Shown one piece after another: positions 41,465-52,597 of a stretch of DNA of 64,000 nucleotides. Position numbers and translations under genes: made by a program. The notes under the pieces were generated by a model. That model saw only the letters and a list, made by a program, of their open reading frames with translations, had not been told where the DNA came from and did not search any database. The DNA comes from Gemmatimonadota bacterium (GTDB taxonomy: Bacteria; Gemmatimonadota; Gemmatimonadetes; Gemmatimonadales; Gemmatimonadaceae). Where the stretch lies: the NCBI GenBank assembly GCA_028287235.1, contig JAQBQB010000010.1:434001-498000 (forward strand), read 5' to 3'. How positions within the stretch are numbered: the first letter of the stretch is position 1; every line of letters begins with the position of its first letter.

Positions 41465-43147
41465 ATGAAGTTGCTGTCCTCCCTGTTCCTGACGGCGTCG
41501 TTCGCGATCGCCGCATGCGGCGCGCCGGCCACGGTCGCCACCACGGTGCCCGCGCCGACCCCGGTCCGCGAGCAACCCACCGCCGCCGCCGTATCGGTCG
41601 GACGAGTGCCGGCCGTCACGCTCACCGAGGCGCCACGCAACTGGCAGCTGCTCGACGAAGCGTCGGATCACGTGCCGGGCATCAGCGCCGAGCGCGCGAT
41701 GAAGGAGCTGCTGGCCGGTAAGTCGCCGCGGCGCACCGTGCTCGTGGCGATCATCGACAACGGCATCGACACGTCGCACGTCGACCTCAAAGCGAACCTC
41801 TGGGTGAACCCGAAGGAGATCGGCGGCAACGGCAAGGACGACGACAACAACGGCTTCGTCGATGACGTGCACGGCTGGAACTTCATCGGCGGACGCGACG
41901 GCGCGGACGTCCACTGGGACACCTTCGAGGTGACGCGCGAATACGCGCGCTGCCACGGCAAAGCGGCCGCGAGCGGTGTGCCGGCGATCAGCGACGCAGC
42001 GCGCTGCACGCAGATCGACGCCGACTACGACAAGCAGCGCAAGTCCATTGAAGGGTCGGTCGGGAACTACCGCGAGATTCACACGATGTTGCAGCAGATC
42101 CTGCCGGTGCTCCAGAAGGCGGTCGGCAGCGATTCGTTGACCACCGAGCGGGTGCGCGCCGTTCCGATGTCGTCGGCCCAGGTGACCCAGGCGCGGCAGG
42201 TCTATCTCGAGCTCGCGGCGCAGGGCGCCACGCCGTCGGTGATCGAGGACGGTCTCGCGTCGCTCGAGGGTCAACTCAAGTACGCGCTCAACCCGGACTA
42301 CAATCCGCGCACCGTCGTCGGCGACAACTACGCCGATCCGAGCGAGCATCGCTACGGCAACGGCGACGTGATGGGGCAGGACGCGAAACACGGTACGCAC
42401 GTCGCGGGCATCATCGGCGCGGTGCGCGGAAACGGCACCGGCATCGACGGCATCGCGCCGGCGGTCAAGTTCATGATGATCCGCACGGTGCCCGACGGCG
42501 ACGAGCGCGACAAGGACGTGGCCAACGCCATTCGCTACGCGGTGGACAACGGCGCGCAGATCATCAGCATGAGCTTCGGAAAGGCCTACTCGCCGTTCAA
42601 GGCGGCGGTCGACGAGGCGGTGAAGTACGCGGACTCGCACGGCGTGCTGATGGTGCACGCGGCGGGCAACGACGGCGCCGACTTGAGCAAGGGAAAGAAC
42701 TTTCCGAACCAGTACTACATCGGCGGCGGCCGCCCGCGGAACTGGATTGAAGTGGGTGCGTCGTCGTGGAAGGGCGGCGACAGTCTCGCGGCGCCGTTCT
42801 CCAACTACGGCCACGAACAAGTGGACGTGTTCGCCCCCGGCGTCGACATTCTCTCGACTATTCCCGGCAACAAGTACGAGCGCGACAGCGGCACGAGCAT
42901 GGCCGCGCCCGTCGTGAGCGGACTCGCGGCACTGGTGATGGACTACTATCCGAACCTCACCGCGTCCGACGTTCACGACATCATCGTGAAGTCGGTGACC
43001 AAGTTGAGCGATCAGATGGTCGTGCGGCCGGGCGAAGACAAGCAGCGCGTGCCGTTCGGATCGCTCTCGGCGTCGGGCGGAATCGTGAACGCCTACAACG
43101 CGCTGAAGATGGCCGACGAGATGAGCAACGGAAAAGCGCGGCCGTAA
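41465..43147 (+). CDS. S8 (subtilisin-like) serine peptidase, secreted
   Basis: Catalytic motifs VAIIDNGIDTSHVDLKANLW (Asp), HGTHVAGIIGAVRGN (His), SGTSMAAPVVSGLAALV (Ser); lipoprotein-like leader ASFAIAACG. Confidence 0.94.
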   Translation: MKLLSSLFLTASFAIAACGAPATVATTVPAPTPVREQPTAAAVSVGRVPAVTLTEAPRNWQLLDEASDHVPGISAERAMKELLAGKSPRRTVLVAIIDNGIDTSHVDLKANLWVNPKEIGGNGKDDDNNGFVDDVHGWNFIGGRDGADVHWDTFEVTREYARCHGKAAASGVPAISDAARCTQIDADYDKQRKSIEGSVGNYREIHTMLQQILPVLQKAVGSDSLTTERVRAVPMSSAQVTQARQVYLELAAQGATPSVIEDGLASLEGQLKYALNPDYNPRTVVGDNYADPSEHRYGNGDVMGQDAKHGTHVAGIIGAVRGNGTGIDGIAPAVKFMMIRTVPDGDERDKDVANAIRYAVDNGAQIISMSFGKAYSPFKAAVDEAVKYADSHGVLMVHAAGNDGADLSKGKNFPNQYYIGGGRPRNWIEVGASSWKGGDSLAAPFSNYGHEQVDVFAPGVDILSTIPGNKYERDSGTSMAAPVVSGLAALVMDYYPNLTASDVHDIIVKSVTKLSDQMVVRPGEDKQRVPFGSLSASGGIVNAYNALKMADEMSNGKARP

Positions 43148-43151
43148 GCCA

Positions 43152-43318
43152 GTGTCATCCTAGCGTAGCGTAGTGTCATCCTGAGCGTAGCGAAGGATCG
43201 CTTTCCATGGAGAGCGATCCTTCGTCGTATTCACTCCTCAGGATGACACTCGTTGCAAACGATCGCTTTCCATGGAGAGCGATCCTTCGTCGTATTCACT
43301 CCTCACGATGACACTCAT
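43152..43318. repeat. TGTCATCCTGAGCG-family palindromic repeat with internal tandem duplication between convergent genes
   Basis: tgtcatcctgagcgtagcgaaggatcgct...agcgatccttcg...cctcaggatgaca followed by a second copy of the right part (cgatcgctttccatggagagcgatccttcgtcgtattcactcctcacgatgacac). Confidence 0.85.
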
Positions 43319-44280
43319 TTCACCAGCGTCACCGCCACGTCACCCACCACCTGCAGGCTCTTCGCCGAAATCTTGTCGAAGGTGTCCTGCGTGGTGTGGT
43401 GATAGTTCGGGCTCACCGGCGTGAACGCATCGTGGACTCTTGGCAGCACGCCAAACTGGATGTCGATGATGTCGATGACGCGCAGGCCCTTCTTCAGGAG
43501 CGGCAGGTGGTCGTCGGTGATCTGCTGCCCGACCTGGTTGATGAAGTACTTGCCGTAGCCCAGCTCCGCGGCGGTGGTCCAGACGCGGTTCACGACTTCG
43601 GGGGCCATCTGCACCGAGTTCGCCTCTTGATAGATCTGTAAATCGGCGTCGCCGATCATGTCGAACAGCGCGCCGTACAGCGGCTTGTAGTCGGGCGACG
43701 GCAGATGGTCGGCGAAATACTGCGACCCGAACAGCGCGTCGCGGTAAGCACCGGTGGTGTCGGGATCGAAGCCGCCCCAGTCCTCGCCGTCGACGAACAG
43801 CAGGTCGACGCCGACCGACGGCGGTGTCTTCTTGAAGACATCGGCCATGGCGACGAACATCCCGACTCCCGACGCGCCGTCGTTTGCCGCCGGAAACGAC
43901 TGCGTCTTCGCGCCGAGGTTCGGATCCTCGTCCGCGGTGGGACGGGTGTCCCAATGGGTGAGGTACAGCACGCGCTGCGTCGCGGTGGGATTGAAGCGCG
44001 CGAGGATGTTCCGCAGCGGCAGCTTCACGCCCTTCGCGGTCGTCTGCGTCCAGCTCTGCACGATCACGCTGTCGGTGCGCTTCTTCATCTCGGCGACGAT
44101 CCAATCCCCCGCTTTCTCGTGCGCGGGTGTTCCGGGCACGCGCGGTCCGAAGTCGAGCTGCGCTTTGGCAAAGCCCAACGCGGCCTGGCCGTCGAACGAG
44201 GTCTTGGGACCGGAGAAGCGGTCTTTGACTTGGTCGCAGCCGGCGAGCAGGACGAGCAGGAGGAGAGTCGATTTACGCAT
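43315..44280 (-). CDS. M28-family metallopeptidase / glutaminyl-peptide cyclotransferase-like lipoprotein
   Basis: Lipobox LLVLLAGCDQ; LDFGPRVPGTPAHEKAGDWI; YLTHWDTRP; NDGASGVGMFVAMADV; DLLFVDGEDWGGF. Confidence 0.88.
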   Translation of the reverse strand: MRKSTLLLLVLLAGCDQVKDRFSGPKTSFDGQAALGFAKAQLDFGPRVPGTPAHEKAGDWIVAEMKKRTDSVIVQSWTQTTAKGVKLPLRNILARFNPTATQRVLYLTHWDTRPTADEDPNLGAKTQSFPAANDGASGVGMFVAMADVFKKTPPSVGVDLLFVDGEDWGGFDPDTTGAYRDALFGSQYFADHLPSPDYKPLYGALFDMIGDADLQIYQEANSVQMAPEVVNRVWTTAAELGYGKYFINQVGQQITDDHLPLLKKGLRVIDIIDIQFGVLPRVHDAFTPVSPNYHHTTQDTFDKISAKSLQVVGDVAVTLVK

Positions 44281-44402: not shown

Positions 44403-47400
44403 TCACGGCTTCGGCCCACCAAACACTCGCAGCTCCAACACCGTCGAGAACACGGTCTGCGCAAATTTCCGGCTCAGATTGTTGTCGAACGTCACGATCT
44501 GCGAGCCCTGGAACGTGAACGTCAGATTCTCGTTCAGGTTGGTATCCGCCGTGAGATTGAACGATTGCCGCCCGTTGTCCTGCAGCCGGCTTTGAAACAC
44601 GCCGGTCTCGCTCAACACGTTCGTCGTATTGCGGCTCGATTGGAAGCTGGCGCGCGTGCGAAGGTCGCTGCGCAGTCCCAGCCCCCAGCTCTCGGGAATA
44701 TGGAACGACCGGCCGGCGTCGATACTGAACTCGTTCACGTGCGTGAGCGCAGTGCTTCCGGGAAGACTGTCGATGCGCCGGCTCAAGCTGTACCGCGCAC
44801 CGGTGCTCAAGCTTCCGCGCCCGGCCCATACCACCGATCCACCGAGCGGAAAGGTCTCGATGTGAGTATGGCGGATCTCCGAGGGCGTGTCGGTGAACAG
44901 GCTCGGCAGCGAGACCGTGACGTCGCTGCGCACGTAGCCGACGTTCGCGTCGAGATTGGATATCGCCCCCGTCACCACCGCCGGCCGATACGCCCAACGG
45001 AGGGTGGCGTCGGGGAATTGCGTCTGCGAGCCGTTCACCTCCGCCTGCGACGCATCGGGCCGGCCGATCCAGTTGAGCGTATTGGTGCGGCTGTAGCGAT
45101 TGACGAACGACGTTCCGAGCGGCAGCAGCACCACGCCCGAGGCGGCCAGCACGCCGGTCTGCCCCGCCGTGCTCGCGCTGATGCCGTTCACCGTGCGGAA
45201 CGAGCCCGGTCCGCCGAGGCCGAACTGAAAGAGGAGCGGCGCGCCGACGGGGGCGGCGTCGAGCGCCGAGAGCAGACTGCGCGTGTACGACACGTCGACT
45301 GGCGCGAACAGCGTTCCGATCCGCCGTACGAAGCTCGAGTCGCGCGAGTAGAGCGTGAACGCTCTCGCGATGTCGACGGTGGTGCCGACGCTCGCGGTCT
45401 GCGCCGCGGTCATGCGCCGCGGCAGCGTGAACGACGCCGCCGTCGCCAGCGAGTCGCGCGCGGCGAGCACGCTGTCCACGCCCACGACTCCGGGCAGCGG
45501 CACGAGCGAGCGGACGTTCGGATCGCGCAGCATGCTGAATTGCGTGCCGAACTCGCCGCGCGGGCGAAGCCACGCCGAGAACGCCGGCGAGAAGGCGACG
45601 CTCGTGAACATCGAGCGGTCGCGCTCGAAGCCGGCGTTCGCGCCGAACAGATCGCGGCGCTGGTGCGTCGCAACCACGGCCATCGTACTCGTGTCGCCGT
45701 AGTTGCGCAGGTCGCGCACCGACTGAATCTCCCAGCGCGCATTGAGCCCGCTCGTGGGCCGAAGCTCCAGCACGCTGCCGTTCCGCCAGAGCCGGCTCTC
45801 CGCCACGCTCACCGATGGCTGGTCGGTCGCCGCGCCGCCCGGCAGGATGAACGACAGCCGGCGGTCCGACGCGCGCACCACGCCGCTCGTAAACCGGAGC
45901 TGCGCCGGATTCCAGCGGAACGCGCTCCCGCGCAACGTGCTGATCGGCCCGGCCTGCAACACCTCGGGCAGCGCGCCGAGCACGCCGTCGAACCAGACGG
46001 GCAGATGCAGGGTGCGCGCGCTATCGTCGGTCACGAGGTAGTCGACACCGACGGTGAAATTGTGCGCGTTGCCGTCCTGGTACTCCGTACGGTCGATGCC
46101 GCTCACGTAAGTACCGGTGGCCGAGAGGTTGTTGATCAACGGTCCGAGGAACGCCGAGCTCACCGGCGTCGTGCGCCGAACGCTCAGGCTGTACGTCGTC
46201 AAGTCGGTCTTCGGGGTTCGAAGTCCGGGAATTCCCTTCCCCGGAATGTCCGTCTGCGACAGATACAGCGGGTCGTTGGCCAATGAGACTTTCGTGATCG
46301 TCAACGGGAGCGAAAACCCGACGCCGCGCGGCAGCAGCTTCTCGAGGTTCACCGTCGACGCCATGTCGACGTTCCGCTCGGACAGGAACGTCGGCTGCTC
46401 GGCGAGCTGGCGGAAGTTCGGATCGCGGTTGCTGACGTTGACGCGGAAGTCGGCGAACCCGCCGGCGTTCGCCGTCATCGAAATCTGTCCGGCGTAACCC
46501 GCCGTGTTGACTTGGTGGTCGAGCCGAATGTCGTCGACCCAGAGCTCGAGGGTGTCGCCCGGTGCAATGCTCGACGCGCCCGCCGTTGCGGCGACGCGCA
46601 CGATGCCGACCGCCAGCTCCTGCACCGCGGCGAGATTGGGCGCCGTCACCGCCGGGTCGACGGTGTAGACCATGTAGCCGTTGTCGCACGCGGCGAAGCG
46701 GTGGCTCACCTGTCCCACGGGCAGGGGCGACGCGACGATGATCGCCGAATCGACACCCGTACAGGCGATCGATTCTTTCTTGCCCGCGAGATACTCCTTT
46801 TGAATCTGCGCGCGCAATGCGACGAACCGGTTGAAGTCCAACGCGACGTCGGTCCACGCGGCAGCGGTCTGTCCGCTGCTCGCCGGCGTGCGATAGAGAT
46901 AGAAGTTGTTTTCGTCGCGCCCGACCTTCACGTACATCTGCAGGTCGCCGTTCTGGCCCCAGCCGTCGCCATGACCGCGGCCCCAGACGCGCAGCTGCTG
47001 ATAGCCGAGGTAGTACTGCGGGCCGGCGGGGAAACGGAAGAACGTCTCGGCGCGATGGTAGACCGGCATGTTGCCGGCCTGAATCCGCATCGAGTGCTCA
47101 TTGATCTGGGTGAGGCCCGTGGAGAATTGCGCCAGCTTGGTGTCGGCCTCGTCGGTCACGCCCGGCGGCGGTTGGTAGACGAGCGTGGCGCTGGAGTCGT
47201 TCGTGCCGATCGACGATGCGATGACGAAGCCGCCGTCGGGCTGGATGCCCGCCACGCCGCGCAGCGTCTGGCTGCTGCGCACGAGCCAGGGCGCGCCGGT
47301 CACGCGCAGCTCGGCGATCGGCACCTGCGTCGTCTCTTCGGGATCCTCGGCCTCGCCCGACACCACCGTGAGGCGCAACGCACGAATGCGACGGCGGTTG

Positions 47401-50400
47401 ACGTCGTTGAGCGAATCGGTCGGCGCCTTGAACGGAACGCTGACGAGCACCCAGCGGCGCGTGCGCACCTGCGGCGCGCCGCGCACCAGGATGGTGTCGG
47501 TGAAGCTGCCCCCCACGCGACGGTACTTGGCCGGATCGCTCAGGTCGATCACGTAGCGAAGCAAGCGCTCGTTCTCGCGCTGAGCGCTGTTGAAGTTGAG
47601 CGCGTTGTCGAGATCGATGTCCTCTTCGTCGAGCCGTCGATTGCCCACGGTGCAGTTGGTCCGCGGATCGCCGAGCGCGTCAAGCGCGCCCACGAGCGCG
47701 TGACAGAGGCGCACCTTGGTCTCGCGGCGCACCACTGCTCCCGGCAGACTGCCGTCGACCACGACGAGCGTATCGGCGACGTCGCCCGGCAGACCGCCGT
47801 CGTTCACGTCGGCGTTGAAGTTGCGTGAGAAGCGGTCGCGCTCCGTGTCGAGCGAATCGAACCCCTGCACGCGCTTGCCGGTGAACAGGCTGTCGACCGT
47901 GCCGCTCGAATTGCGCTGTAGCGTGAGCGTCGACGGTGAGAAGCGCAGCGAGTTCTCGGAGACGTCACCGAAGTCGAAGATCATCGTGGGGTTCGTCTTC
48001 CGCGCCGAAACGCTCGTGTCGACGAGCGTCCAGAACTCGAGCTGCTCGTCGCCGGTGAGATCGATGCCCGCGGGGCGAAGCACGGTGCGGATCGATCGCC
48101 ACCGCCGGCCCGCCGGCTGCGTCGGCAGCGTCCAGTCGTACCGCCTCGGCCCCTGCTTGTAGCCGCCGAGCTGGTCGAGCGGCAGCAGCGAGAGCCAGAG
48201 CAGCTGTTCGGGAAACTGCACGCCGCCGCCGGAGAAGCTCGCGAGCGGATCGATGTTCTTGAGCGTGACGATTCGCCGATCGCCGCCGAACGATTTCACG
48301 TTCGTCTGCCACACCAACGTCGCGGCGCGACTCTGCTCGAAGAACGCCGACCCGAACTGCGACCGCAGCGTGTGCCCGTACGCGGGCATGCTGCTGAAGT
48401 CCCACGCGATGTCGCCAAGGGCGATCAGCACGCCGCCCGCTCCCTCGAACGACTCGACGTATGCCGTGCCCTGGTTGCGGGCGAATAGCTGCGGATGGCT
48501 GCTCGCCATCTCTCCTTGAATCGCGAAGCGCGACGGCGCCTTCGTGTCGCCGAAGGGCAACCGGCTGACGAGCGACGTGAGCGCGGGAACGTCCCAGTGA
48601 AACTGTCCCGTCACGCCGGCGGTGAGCGTGGAGCTTCCCTGAAAGCCGAGCTGCGGACGAGTGAATGACGTGCTCTGCGACTGGTTGATCGCGCTCAGCG
48701 CGAGACTGCCGTGGCTCAGCGGAAGCTCGGTGACGAAGCCGGCGAGCGTGGTCGGGGTGGGCGCGAATCCGGGATTGTCTTCATAGCGCACTTCGACGCG
48801 GCGCTGCGTTCGGAGCAGGGTGTCGGGCCGCAGGAAGTCGATGCGCCCGAGATCGTAGTCGATCCGATAGTCGAGGTCGCGCACGAGCGGGCGGCCCTCG
48901 AGCAGCACGCGCTCGGAGCCGGGCCGCATCTGACTTGCGCCCAACGAGATGATGCTGCCCTCGTCCGAGCCCACGCTCTGATAGCGCAGGCGCAAACGAT
49001 AGATGGTCGTGGGGCGTTGCGGCGAGTTGAGGAATTGACCGGGCACGGTATAGATCGCGTCGTTCGTCGGATTCCCCGCGACGACGAGTCCTCCGCCGCC
49101 GGCCGCGTCGCGCGCGGCGAACGGATGGAGCGACGGCAGCACCACGAAGTAGTCGCGAATGATCTTCGAGGCGTCGAGCGCCTGCGGTCCGCCGTTGCGC
49201 ACATCGGGAGCGCCGGCGCCGAGGTTGAAGATGCCGTCGCTCACGCGCGGCCAGACCCGGTTGTCGTAGTCGAACTCCGCCGGGTTCGTCGCCTGCGACA
49301 GGCCGAACATCTGAAGGAACGTGGCGTCGCCGCCCGCCAGCGGGTGCTCGAGCGAGCCGCTGCCCGCCACGACACGTACCTGCGCCGACGAGCGGATGAG
49401 TCCCTCGCCGGCGAGCCGGTAGACGGAGCGGATCTCATTCCGAAAGGCCGGCGACGTGGGGCCGACGTTCGGATCCATGACCAGGTTGGCGATCTGCTCG
49501 CGACCCGTCACCAGCTGGAGGTCGGGGGTGCCGCCGGTGGTCGTCCACACGGTGTCGCGGCCGTTCAACTTGACGTTGTACGCGACGACGAGCCGCTCGT
49601 TGTCCTGATTGAGCTCGCGCACGAGCACGAACCACAGCAGCGACGGATCCATGTAGTAGTCGACACCTTCACGCAGCAGATCGTACGTCTGCCGTCCGCC
49701 GCCCGGGTCGCCTTGCAGTCGAAACTGCGGGCCGTTCGGATTTTGCGGCTGCGTGCCGAACTGCAGCCGGTAGAGGCGCACGAGCGTGGGGCGCAGCGTG
49801 TCGGGCAACACGTTCCGCGCCTGCAGCATCTGTGAGCGATTTAGTATATCAATATTTGGATAGGCGCGTCCGAAGCGCGCCGGATCCACGGTGAAGAAGA
49901 AGCGCCGCGGCTCGACCTGGTAGTCTTCCACGTCGCGCTCCGCACGCTGCTCGGCGCGGCGGCCCACGGTGAACTGCTGGCTCTGGACCACGTTCCCCGT
50001 CTGGCGCGCGGCGATCATCTTGAGGCTCAGCGCGCCGAACTGCCACGCCGATTGAAAGCCGTAGTTGCCGCTGGGAAGCGACGACGTGAGAAAGCGAGAG
50101 GCGGGCGGCGTGAAGTTGATGTTGCCCACGTCGAGCCGCTGAAGGTGCGCGCCCGGCTTTCCTTCGTAATAGAGCGACACGGTGTTCGACGCGTCGAACT
50201 CCCGGTTCATGTCGTAGTCGACGTTGACGTGGAACTGGTCGCCGATCGTGCCCGCGCTCTTGAGCGTGCCCTTGAAGTCGAAGTTGGGCGGCAGGAGGAA
50301 CTTGGCCCGGCAGCCCGACGCCGAGCTGAGCTGCGTGTTGATCTGCGCGAACTCGACCGAGTTGCAGCGGAGGTTGAGATCCCGCTCGCTCTTCGACTCG

Positions 50401-50654
50401 ACGCGCAGGTTGAATTGCACGGGTAGATCGAGACCCGGAATGGCGATATTTCCGGCCCGCCGTGTCGTGTCGGTGTCGGCGGGGGGGCGCGGCATCACGA
50501 TGCGGCGCGCCGAGTCTGCCAGCGGCCTCGTGGGGCGCGACGACGTATCCCGCGGCGGTGTTTGTGCATGCAGCCTTGCGGCGCACAGCAACGCGGGAAT
50601 GATGAGAGCCCAGGGCGCCCAGGGGCGCGTCGCAGGAGATTCGGGTCGCACCAA
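44403..50654 (-). CDS. sprA-like: SprA-like giant outer membrane protein (type IX secretion translocon-related)
   Basis: 2083-aa ORF with signal peptide; FHVNVDYDMNREFDASNTVSLYYEGKPGAHLQRLDVGNINFTPP...LQFGALSLKMIAARQTGNVVQSQQFTVG and VLLEGRPLVRDLDYRIDYDLGRIDFLRPDTLLRTQRRVEVRYEDNPGF resemble SprA repeats. Confidence 0.8.
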   Translation of the reverse strand: MVRPESPATRPWAPWALIIPALLCAARLHAQTPPRDTSSRPTRPLADSARRIVMPRPPADTDTTRRAGNIAIPGLDLPVQFNLRVESKSERDLNLRCNSVEFAQINTQLSSASGCRAKFLLPPNFDFKGTLKSAGTIGDQFHVNVDYDMNREFDASNTVSLYYEGKPGAHLQRLDVGNINFTPPASRFLTSSLPSGNYGFQSAWQFGALSLKMIAARQTGNVVQSQQFTVGRRAEQRAERDVEDYQVEPRRFFFTVDPARFGRAYPNIDILNRSQMLQARNVLPDTLRPTLVRLYRLQFGTQPQNPNGPQFRLQGDPGGGRQTYDLLREGVDYYMDPSLLWFVLVRELNQDNERLVVAYNVKLNGRDTVWTTTGGTPDLQLVTGREQIANLVMDPNVGPTSPAFRNEIRSVYRLAGEGLIRSSAQVRVVAGSGSLEHPLAGGDATFLQMFGLSQATNPAEFDYDNRVWPRVSDGIFNLGAGAPDVRNGGPQALDASKIIRDYFVVLPSLHPFAARDAAGGGGLVVAGNPTNDAIYTVPGQFLNSPQRPTTIYRLRLRYQSVGSDEGSIISLGASQMRPGSERVLLEGRPLVRDLDYRIDYDLGRIDFLRPDTLLRTQRRVEVRYEDNPGFAPTPTTLAGFVTELPLSHGSLALSAINQSQSTSFTRPQLGFQGSSTLTAGVTGQFHWDVPALTSLVSRLPFGDTKAPSRFAIQGEMASSHPQLFARNQGTAYVESFEGAGGVLIALGDIAWDFSSMPAYGHTLRSQFGSAFFEQSRAATLVWQTNVKSFGGDRRIVTLKNIDPLASFSGGGVQFPEQLLWLSLLPLDQLGGYKQGPRRYDWTLPTQPAGRRWRSIRTVLRPAGIDLTGDEQLEFWTLVDTSVSARKTNPTMIFDFGDVSENSLRFSPSTLTLQRNSSGTVDSLFTGKRVQGFDSLDTERDRFSRNFNADVNDGGLPGDVADTLVVVDGSLPGAVVRRETKVRLCHALVGALDALGDPRTNCTVGNRRLDEEDIDLDNALNFNSAQRENERLLRYVIDLSDPAKYRRVGGSFTDTILVRGAPQVRTRRWVLVSVPFKAPTDSLNDVNRRRIRALRLTVVSGEAEDPEETTQVPIAELRVTGAPWLVRSSQTLRGVAGIQPDGGFVIASSIGTNDSSATLVYQPPPGVTDEADTKLAQFSTGLTQINEHSMRIQAGNMPVYHRAETFFRFPAGPQYYLGYQQLRVWGRGHGDGWGQNGDLQMYVKVGRDENNFYLYRTPASSGQTAAAWTDVALDFNRFVALRAQIQKEYLAGKKESIACTGVDSAIIVASPLPVGQVSHRFAACDNGYMVYTVDPAVTAPNLAAVQELAVGIVRVAATAGASSIAPGDTLELWVDDIRLDHQVNTAGYAGQISMTANAGGFADFRVNVSNRDPNFRQLAEQPTFLSERNVDMASTVNLEKLLPRGVGFSLPLTITKVSLANDPLYLSQTDIPGKGIPGLRTPKTDLTTYSLSVRRTTPVSSAFLGPLINNLSATGTYVSGIDRTEYQDGNAHNFTVGVDYLVTDDSARTLHLPVWFDGVLGALPEVLQAGPISTLRGSAFRWNPAQLRFTSGVVRASDRRLSFILPGGAATDQPSVSVAESRLWRNGSVLELRPTSGLNARWEIQSVRDLRNYGDTSTMAVVATHQRRDLFGANAGFERDRSMFTSVAFSPAFSAWLRPRGEFGTQFSMLRDPNVRSLVPLPGVVGVDSVLAARDSLATAASFTLPRRMTAAQTASVGTTVDIARAFTLYSRDSSFVRRIGTLFAPVDVSYTRSLLSALDAAPVGAPLLFQFGLGGPGSFRTVNGISASTAGQTGVLAASGVVLLPLGTSFVNRYSRTNTLNWIGRPDASQAEVNGSQTQFPDATLRWAYRPAVVTGAISNLDANVGYVRSDVTVSLPSLFTDTPSEIRHTHIETFPLGGSVVWAGRGSLSTGARYSLSRRIDSLPGSTALTHVNEFSIDAGRSFHIPESWGLGLRSDLRTRASFQSSRNTTNVLSETGVFQSRLQDNGRQSFNLTADTNLNENLTFTFQGSQIVTFDNNLSRKFAQTVFSTVLELRVFGGPKP

Positions 50655-50803
50655 ACCCTAAAGGTGGGGTAGGAACCCGCCAACGGTCCCTGGCAAGCCT
50701 TGTCTTGGAACGGGTGGCGGGTGGAATATACAGACCGTACAGGGCCGTACAACCCTGTGGAGCGCTTAGAGTTGGCAGTCTGCGGAGAGCTCGACCAAGG
50801 CCC

Positions 50804-52597
50804 GTGAAAATAATCACCCGGTACGTCCTGAAGGAGCATGTCGGACCCTTCGTGTTCGCCCTGTCGGCGCTCACGTCGCTACTGCTGTTGCAGTACATCG
50901 CGCGGCGCTTCGGGGACCTGGTTGGCAAGGGCCTTTCCTGGAACGTGATCACCGAGTTTCTGCTGCTCTCGATCCCGTTCACGCTGGCCATGACCCTGCC
51001 CATGGCCATGCTCGTGGCCGTCCTCTACGCGTTCAGCCGCTTGGCGTCGGAGAACGAGATCACCGCGCTCAAAGCCGGCGGCGTCTCGACGCGCGGCCTG
51101 ATGGTGCCGGCTGTCGCCGCCGCCACCGTGCTCGCGATCTTCATGCTCTGGTTCAACGACCAGGTGCTGCCGCGCGCGAATCACGAGCTGGCCACGCTCC
51201 AGGTGGCGATCCTGCGCACCAAGCCGACGTTCGCGCTGAGGCCGCAGGTTATCAACACGGTCAAGGAAAGCCAGTACTATCTGCGGGCCGGCCAGATCGA
51301 CGAAGAGACCGGTCTGATGAAGGACGTCACGATCTACGACGTCAACGACAACAACCGCCGGCGCACGATCTACGCGGACAGCGGCATGCTCGCGCTCACG
51401 CCGAACATGCGCGACCTCTCGCTCCACCTCTTCAAGGGCTGGATGCTGCTCGCGCCGACGAACCAGCCGGGGCAAGTCAGCCGCGTCTATTACAAGGAGG
51501 ATCTGCTCAAGGTCCGCGACGTGGGCAATCAGTTTCAGTCGATCAACGCCGACACCGCGTCCAAAGGCGACCGCGAGATGTCGGTGTGCGAGATGCAGCG
51601 GCAGTATGAGATCGCGAATGCGTCGGTCCAACGCGCACACACCGACAGCCTGATGGCCGTGTGGCGGATGCGCGACGCGCGCGGCGACCACGTGCCGCAG
51701 CCCGGGCTGCCCATACTGACCAAAGCGGGCGGAATTGGCGCGGCCTATTGCAGCTTGATCACCAAGTATTTCCACGTGCAAACGGCCAACGCCGCCGAGG
51801 TGCCGAAGCGGCGGCAGCAACCGGAGTCGATCTGGGTCTCCGTCAATGGCAAGTCGACGAAGGTGCAGGCTGACAAGCTTCCGCCAAATGCGTACTACGC
51901 GAACGGGCTCCCCGCGGGCGTGCAGGCGATCAAGGAACGGGCGCTCGCAGATTCGGTGCGCGTCGCTGCCGCCGCGGCGAAACCAGCCACTCCGGCCACT
52001 CCAGCCAACCCGGCCAACGCTACTACGCCGACGATCACTCCTGGAGTGGCCGTCGCAACTCCTCCCGGCGCAACGCCGCCGGGCGCGACTCCGCCGCCGG
52101 TGAGCGCGAGCATCCCAGCGGTGGCGAACGGCGGCGTGAACGTGGGCACGGCGATGGAGCTCAGCGATGCGCATCTCCGTCTCGACGAAGCCCGGTACCG
52201 CCGCAACCGCGCCGGCGTGGAGATTCAAAAGAAGTTCTCGCTCGCCTTCGCGTGCATCGTGTTCGTGCTCGTCGGTGCCCCCTTGGCGGTGCGCTTTCCG
52301 CGCGGCGGCGTGGGCCTGGTGATTGGCGCGAGCTTTCTGATCTTCGCCATCTACTACATCGGCCTGATCGGCGGCGAGTCGCTGGCGAACAAGAACATCA
52401 TCTCGCCCTTCTGGGCGATGTGGGCCGACAACATCGTCTTCTTCATCGCCGGGCTGCTCCTCATGACGCGCATGGGCCGCGAGGGCGGCACCGGCCGCGG
52501 CGGCGGCGTGGCGGAGCTCCTCGAAGGCGTGCGCGCCCGGTTCGCACGGCTCGGTCGCCGCGTTGGCCGCGGCAGCGCCGGTCACACTCCCATCTGA
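50804..52597 (+). CDS. lptF: LptF/LptG-family (YjgP/YjgQ) LPS export permease
   Basis: KIITRYVLKEHVGPFVFALSALTSLLLLQYIARRFGDLVGKGLSW...SENEITALKAGGVSTRGLMVP; GTG start; Pro/Ala/Thr-rich insertion before the C-terminal TM helices. Confidence 0.85.
   Translation: MKIITRYVLKEHVGPFVFALSALTSLLLLQYIARRFGDLVGKGLSWNVITEFLLLSIPFTLAMTLPMAMLVAVLYAFSRLASENEITALKAGGVSTRGLMVPAVAAATVLAIFMLWFNDQVLPRANHELATLQVAILRTKPTFALRPQVINTVKESQYYLRAGQIDEETGLMKDVTIYDVNDNNRRRTIYADSGMLALTPNMRDLSLHLFKGWMLLAPTNQPGQVSRVYYKEDLLKVRDVGNQFQSINADTASKGDREMSVCEMQRQYEIANASVQRAHTDSLMAVWRMRDARGDHVPQPGLPILTKAGGIGAAYCSLITKYFHVQTANAAEVPKRRQQPESIWVSVNGKSTKVQADKLPPNAYYANGLPAGVQAIKERALADSVRVAAAAAKPATPATPANPANATTPTITPGVAVATPPGATPPGATPPPVSASIPAVANGGVNVGTAMELSDAHLRLDEARYRRNRAGVEIQKKFSLAFACIVFVLVGAPLAVRFPRGGVGLVIGASFLIFAIYYIGLIGGESLANKNIISPFWAMWADNIVFFIAGLLLMTRMGREGGTGRGGGVAELLEGVRARFARLGRRVGRGSAGHTPI

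Follow-up and report, generated by a model that had tools for sequence, protein, structure and literature searches.

Introduction

The closest described counterparts of the gene analyzed here are SprA of F. johnsoniae and Sov of P. gingivalis, the outer-membrane translocon of the type IX secretion system (T9SS). In Bacteroidota, this system comprises SprA, PorV, PorU, GldKLMN, SprE and cargo proteins bearing a C-terminal domain (CTD). The F. johnsoniae translocon serves as the analogy for the passage of CTD cargo through SprA to a docked PorV (PMC10994853, PMC12635249), and the motor of this organism is needed to release the cargo from SprA (PMC10994853). Four T9SS components were defined as loners in a 2016 survey, which found the complete system in Bacteroidetes only (PMC4793230). 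Gemmatimonadetes have been listed among FCB phyla possibly equipped with a T9SS (PMC11285876), and SprA is described as FCB-specific and absent from Chlorobiota (PMC12611786). Our literature search, with most subscription journals outside its scope, found no paper naming both SprA and Gemmatimonadota.

Here we describe a sprA gene in a 64,000-nucleotide stretch of DNA, hereafter the window, and its putative partners elsewhere in the same genome. A preceding sequence-only reading had considered that the host might not be a member of the Bacteroidota, and the organism indeed belongs to the Gemmatimonadaceae, a family of soil bacteria. Like the Bacteroidota T9SS, its genome combines SprA with a PorV-family carrier and candidate CTD cargo, but it differs by yielding no C25/PorU match and by holding very few CTD proteins. 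These features are probably best explained by a reduced type 9-like route in which SprA and PorV export few cargos without a sortase. As SprA has been recorded from FCB phyla before, what we regard as new is the reduced set without PorU, whose carrier and cargo candidate are co-lost with SprA.

Results and Discussion

The sprA gene occupies positions 44403-50654 of the window (minus strand) as one uninterrupted ORF with a TTG start, encoding a protein of 2083 aa. Its N-terminus is signal-peptide-like, the predicted peptide ending in ...LHA directly ahead of QTPP. The sequence-only reading had likened the protein to SprA and proposed an HMM search, and against the NCBIfam equivalog model TIGR04189 (SprA/Sov) the product scores 596 bits (E=1.7e-178, cut-off 200). 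The match falls into three stretches that together span most of the model: an N-terminal module at 49851-50303 (minus strand; model positions 126-274, 100 bits) containing VNVDYDMNREFDASNTVSLYYEG, the main stretch at 45507-49676 (minus strand; model positions 376-1794, 475 bits) containing YRIDYDLGRIDFLRP, and a C-terminal stretch at 44421-44804 (minus strand; model positions 2183-2317, 22.6 bits), window coordinates being contig coordinates minus 434000. Both motifs had been quoted as SprA-like beforehand, and both lie within regions alignable to chain 6h3i_A, the SprA of F. johnsoniae. A PDB search with the single sequence returned SprA chains 6h3i/6h3j only, while a profile of 12 Gemmatimonadota SprAs matched the solved chain 6h3i with E=2e-101, covering its positions 168-2049 of 2403 with positions 187-1863 of the 2077 in the profile. 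A model of residues 540-1716, calculated from an alignment of two rows only and aimed at the presumed giant barrel, reached a mean pLDDT of 25. Judged by the profile alignments, the ORF is a true SprA, its similarity being one of homology and not of chance. The homology to SprA/Sov runs along the whole TIGR04189 model, whereas the protein is shorter than the solved SprA (2083 versus 2403 aa), carries in the host's genus only a short N-terminal tail ahead of the first module, and is encoded next to lptF/lptG.

This LPS-transport neighbor is an LptF-like permease gene at 50753-52597 (plus strand; PF03739, 270 bits), divergent from sprA and conserved, which is not a T9SS part. Further neighbors in the window are mlaE/mlaD-like genes and an M28-family gene, so that the LPS and phospholipid transport surroundings seen in the sequence-only reading were found as described. 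Among the loci sampled, the divergent lptF/lptG-sprA arrangement recurs across several families and extends to another class of the phylum, f9 (genomes G001, G003, G005, G007, G009 and G011); mla-like genes adjoin sprA in Gemmatimonadaceae.

SprA was detected in 106 of 150 Gemmatimonadota genomes, 103 of them above the curated cut-off, and the carriers occur at every kinship depth, class f9 included. The closest named relative found is a Gemmatimonadaceae MAG, with 62% identity in the best segment. As SprA scores in Gemmatimonas reach 1251 bits, we also weighed an acquisition of sprA from Bacteroidota by horizontal transfer. It is disfavored by a SprA tree that agrees with the families (an unrooted tree of Gemmatimonadota sequences only) and by the lptF/lptG neighborhood common with f9. 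Since the tree follows the families and several of these have the neighborhood in common, the sequences point to SprA being old in Gemmatimonadota and vertically inherited inside the phylum.

The sequence-only reading had noted that no T9SS cluster lies beside sprA, and whole-genome profile searches placed the PorV and CTD genes of the host on other contigs. This missing cluster is less telling than had been assumed, because T9SS genes are often scattered and Gemmatimonadetes have already been named as possible T9SS holders. The genome search proposed there did yield a PorV-family carrier. The host genome (G000) encodes one PorV/PorQ-family protein above cut-off (NF033709, 118.5 bits versus 90), at G000:C29:108185-109174, which stays below the narrower PorV equivalog NF033710 (65 bits, cut-off 250). 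The gene order at this locus, era-porV-c9-GGDEF-zinc ribbon, is repeated in relatives. A second, weaker PorV-family protein on another host contig (G000:C4, L061:9012-9983; 39.7 bits, cut-off 90) is adjoined by alpha/beta-hydrolase genes. The c9 protein (L060:15383-16366 and relatives) is conserved, has no family assigned and stays beside porV, or beside PorU-porV in f9, which makes it a candidate partner.

Within the same phylum, the f9 set resembles that of the host in its lptF/lptG-adjacent sprA and in the era-linked block with porV and c9. It differs in that PorU is kept between era and porV (era-porU-porV-c9), and in its 5-14 PorV-family and 11-33 TIGR04183 CTD matches per genome. The f9 PorU is a clear one, at 593 bits against an equivalog cut-off of 420. 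The C25 model PF01364 finds it in 6/6 f9 genomes but gave no match in the host genome; across all other genomes searched, its only match was a weak one in f6. Because the search succeeds in f9 and not in the host, porU appears to be missing from an otherwise conserved era block, and from these profile matches we consider PorU really missing or replaced in the host's class.

Candidate cargo was likewise sought at the level of the whole genome. The sequence-only reading had pointed to T9SS C-terminal domains, and here the outcome was divided: TIGR04183 gave nothing above cut-off in the host, while profiles built from CTDs of the phylum revealed a candidate, CTD-1. Two other matches were ruled out as CTD cargo: a TIGR04183 match at host C9 (E=0.04) has an internal position far from the C-terminus, and a profile match at C28 falls in an ApbE-like protein whose FlgD-like Ig stretch is internal. 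Profile A1, built from the phylum's CTDs and used on 58 genomes, led to three groups. The first comprises proteins of ~1300-1460 aa whose genes, in Gemmatimonas and other families, lie directly beside porV of a second type. The second, CTD-1, is a protein of ~350 aa in the host with a signal peptide, a Fn3-like part and the C-terminal domain, encoded at G000:C11, about 73588-74640, with an SMC gene on one side and a metallo-hydrolase gene on the other; it is the only clear CTD candidate in the host genome. The third, CTD-2 (L108-L118, L123-L125, L134, L137, L140, L141, L143, L145 and L146), consists of ~150 aa proteins that have a signal peptide and hardly anything beyond a CTD-like domain; where the neighborhood was read they are encoded beside clpB, and they also occur in SprA-negative genomes.

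Are these domains sorting signals at all? They may be ordinary FlgD-like Ig domains, with SprA and PorV handling cargo not recognized here. FlgD Ig-like domains match the CTD-1 family about equally well, FlgD_ig hitting 11/11 and TIGR04183 7/11 of the CTD-1 proteins, the host protein itself being below TIGR04183, and CTD-2 persists in several genomes without SprA. Against this stands the placement of the CTD-1/CTD-2-type domain at the extreme C-terminus of signal-peptide proteins, as do the ~1300-1460 aa proteins, whose genes directly adjoin porV and whose CTD is closely related. The CTD-1 profile aligns with the profile of this PorV-linked CTD (hhalign 98.1%, E=1.2e-13), and in G097 an SMC-adjacent CTD protein (33.7 bits, cut-off 23) adjoins a porV of the same clade. 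Furthermore, CTD-1 (presence defined as E<1e-40) was found in 24/38 SprA-positive and 0/16 SprA-negative genomes of the family (Fisher 8.8e-6, a P value that is too small as relatedness is ignored), 14 SprA-positive genomes being without it. We therefore regard the reading as mere FlgD-like domains as unlikely.

SprA and the carrier were found to occur together. With strong PorV defined as E<=1e-18, the 150 genomes divide into 96 with both, 10 with SprA only, 3 with PorV only and 41 with neither. Within the 54 Gemmatimonadaceae genomes the numbers are 38, 0, 1 and 15, respectively (Fisher 1.8e-12, again too small a P because the test ignores relatedness). More telling than these P values is the co-loss in G057 (g9) and G071 (g7), which are without SprA, strong PorV and CTD-1, whereas their congeners have them. 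Although a gene may go unseen in a draft assembly, both genomes have a listed completeness of at least 96%. Exceptions are G040, with PorV and no SprA, and G058 (L096; a complete assembly in one contig), which has SprA and CTD-2 and no PorV match at E<=1e-3.

These patterns bear on the proposal of the sequence-only reading that a SprA fold might serve another role, that is, a SprA repurposed for a different outer-membrane task, such as one linked to LPS or lipid export. The adjoining lptF/lptG genes in several families, the mla-like genes in Gemmatimonadaceae and the apparently PorV-free G058 fit such a role. However, the lptF/lptG link is no sign of lost export, since it is shared by f9, where PorU and numerous CTD proteins occur, and within Gemmatimonadaceae the PorV-family carrier and CTD-1 follow the presence of SprA. 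Repurposing thus appears very improbable to us.

The alternative view of the gene as a T9SS relative held in a reduced form, consisting of SprA, the PorV-family protein and CTD-1, and did not extend to PorU. We infer that these three act together, and most likely, by analogy with F. johnsoniae, CTD cargo passes via SprA to PorV. A cargo protein with signal peptide and Ig-like CTD would enter the periplasm by Sec, then cross the SprA channel and be received by the docked PorV-family carrier, the product of the porV gene in the era-porV-c9 block. As PorU, which cuts the CTD and attaches the cargo to LPS, was not found, neither cutting of the CTD nor joining to LPS would follow, and the cargo may either stay PorV-bound or leave unprocessed.

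The motor is the point at which a conventional system has to be weighed. The GldL/GldM models TIGR03517 and TIGR03513 matched 0/150 genomes, f9 included, and no control genome matched either; the same holds for GldL_N (PF22827), the short conserved membrane part, with 0/15 genomes at E<=0.1 and likewise no control genome matched. Hence the part of the proposed genome search that concerned the motor returned nothing. A complete conventional T9SS, whose motor (GldLM), ring (GldKN) and anchoring components exist but have diverged too far for the models used, is a possibility that we take seriously while holding it short of probable. That f9 has a genuine PorU and numerous CTD and PorV-family matches yet no GldL/GldM match suggests that the motor models miss this phylum, in line with their behavior toward the control genomes. 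On the other side, GldL_N is also without a match, and the C25 model does recognize PorU in f9 and, one weak match aside, not in the host's class. Since the F. johnsoniae motor frees the cargo from SprA, either a diverged motor or a different mode of release would operate here. We tentatively suggest, as a rather doubtful extension of the reduced route, that Gemmatimonadaceae perform SprA-PorV export with neither the PorU sortase nor any motor of the GldLM type. Passage through a barrel of the largest single-chain type known would then be driven otherwise, conceivably just by the folding of cargo on the carrier.

If the reduced SprA-PorV route holds true, selection can maintain translocon and carrier across a whole family in which the sortase, and possibly the motor, is gone. 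A minimal functional set for type 9 export would thereby be defined, and the very few cargos would make this a natural system for following transport. The T9SS would then be an ancient character of the FCB group, reduced within Gemmatimonadota. Both sprA and porV are present in Gemmatimonas strains available in culture, so the question of export is testable.

Downstream of sprA and co-oriented with it lies the M28-family gene, at 43315-44280 (minus strand; Pfam Peptidase_M28), which keeps its position beside sprA in relatives. It encodes a glutaminyl cyclase-like lipoprotein, whose top PDB matches carry the name glutamine cyclotransferase (E=1.7e-58). In a crude scan, Gln directly followed the predicted signal-peptide cut in 36/147 Gemmatimonadota proteins against a background of 3.7%, an enrichment that resembles, outside Bacteroidetes, the Q-rule described for that phylum by authors who argue that it plays no part in T9SS targeting (PMC5837995). 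A secreted-looking S8 subtilase gene is also found near sprA, at 41465-43147 of the window, and recurs in the same genus.
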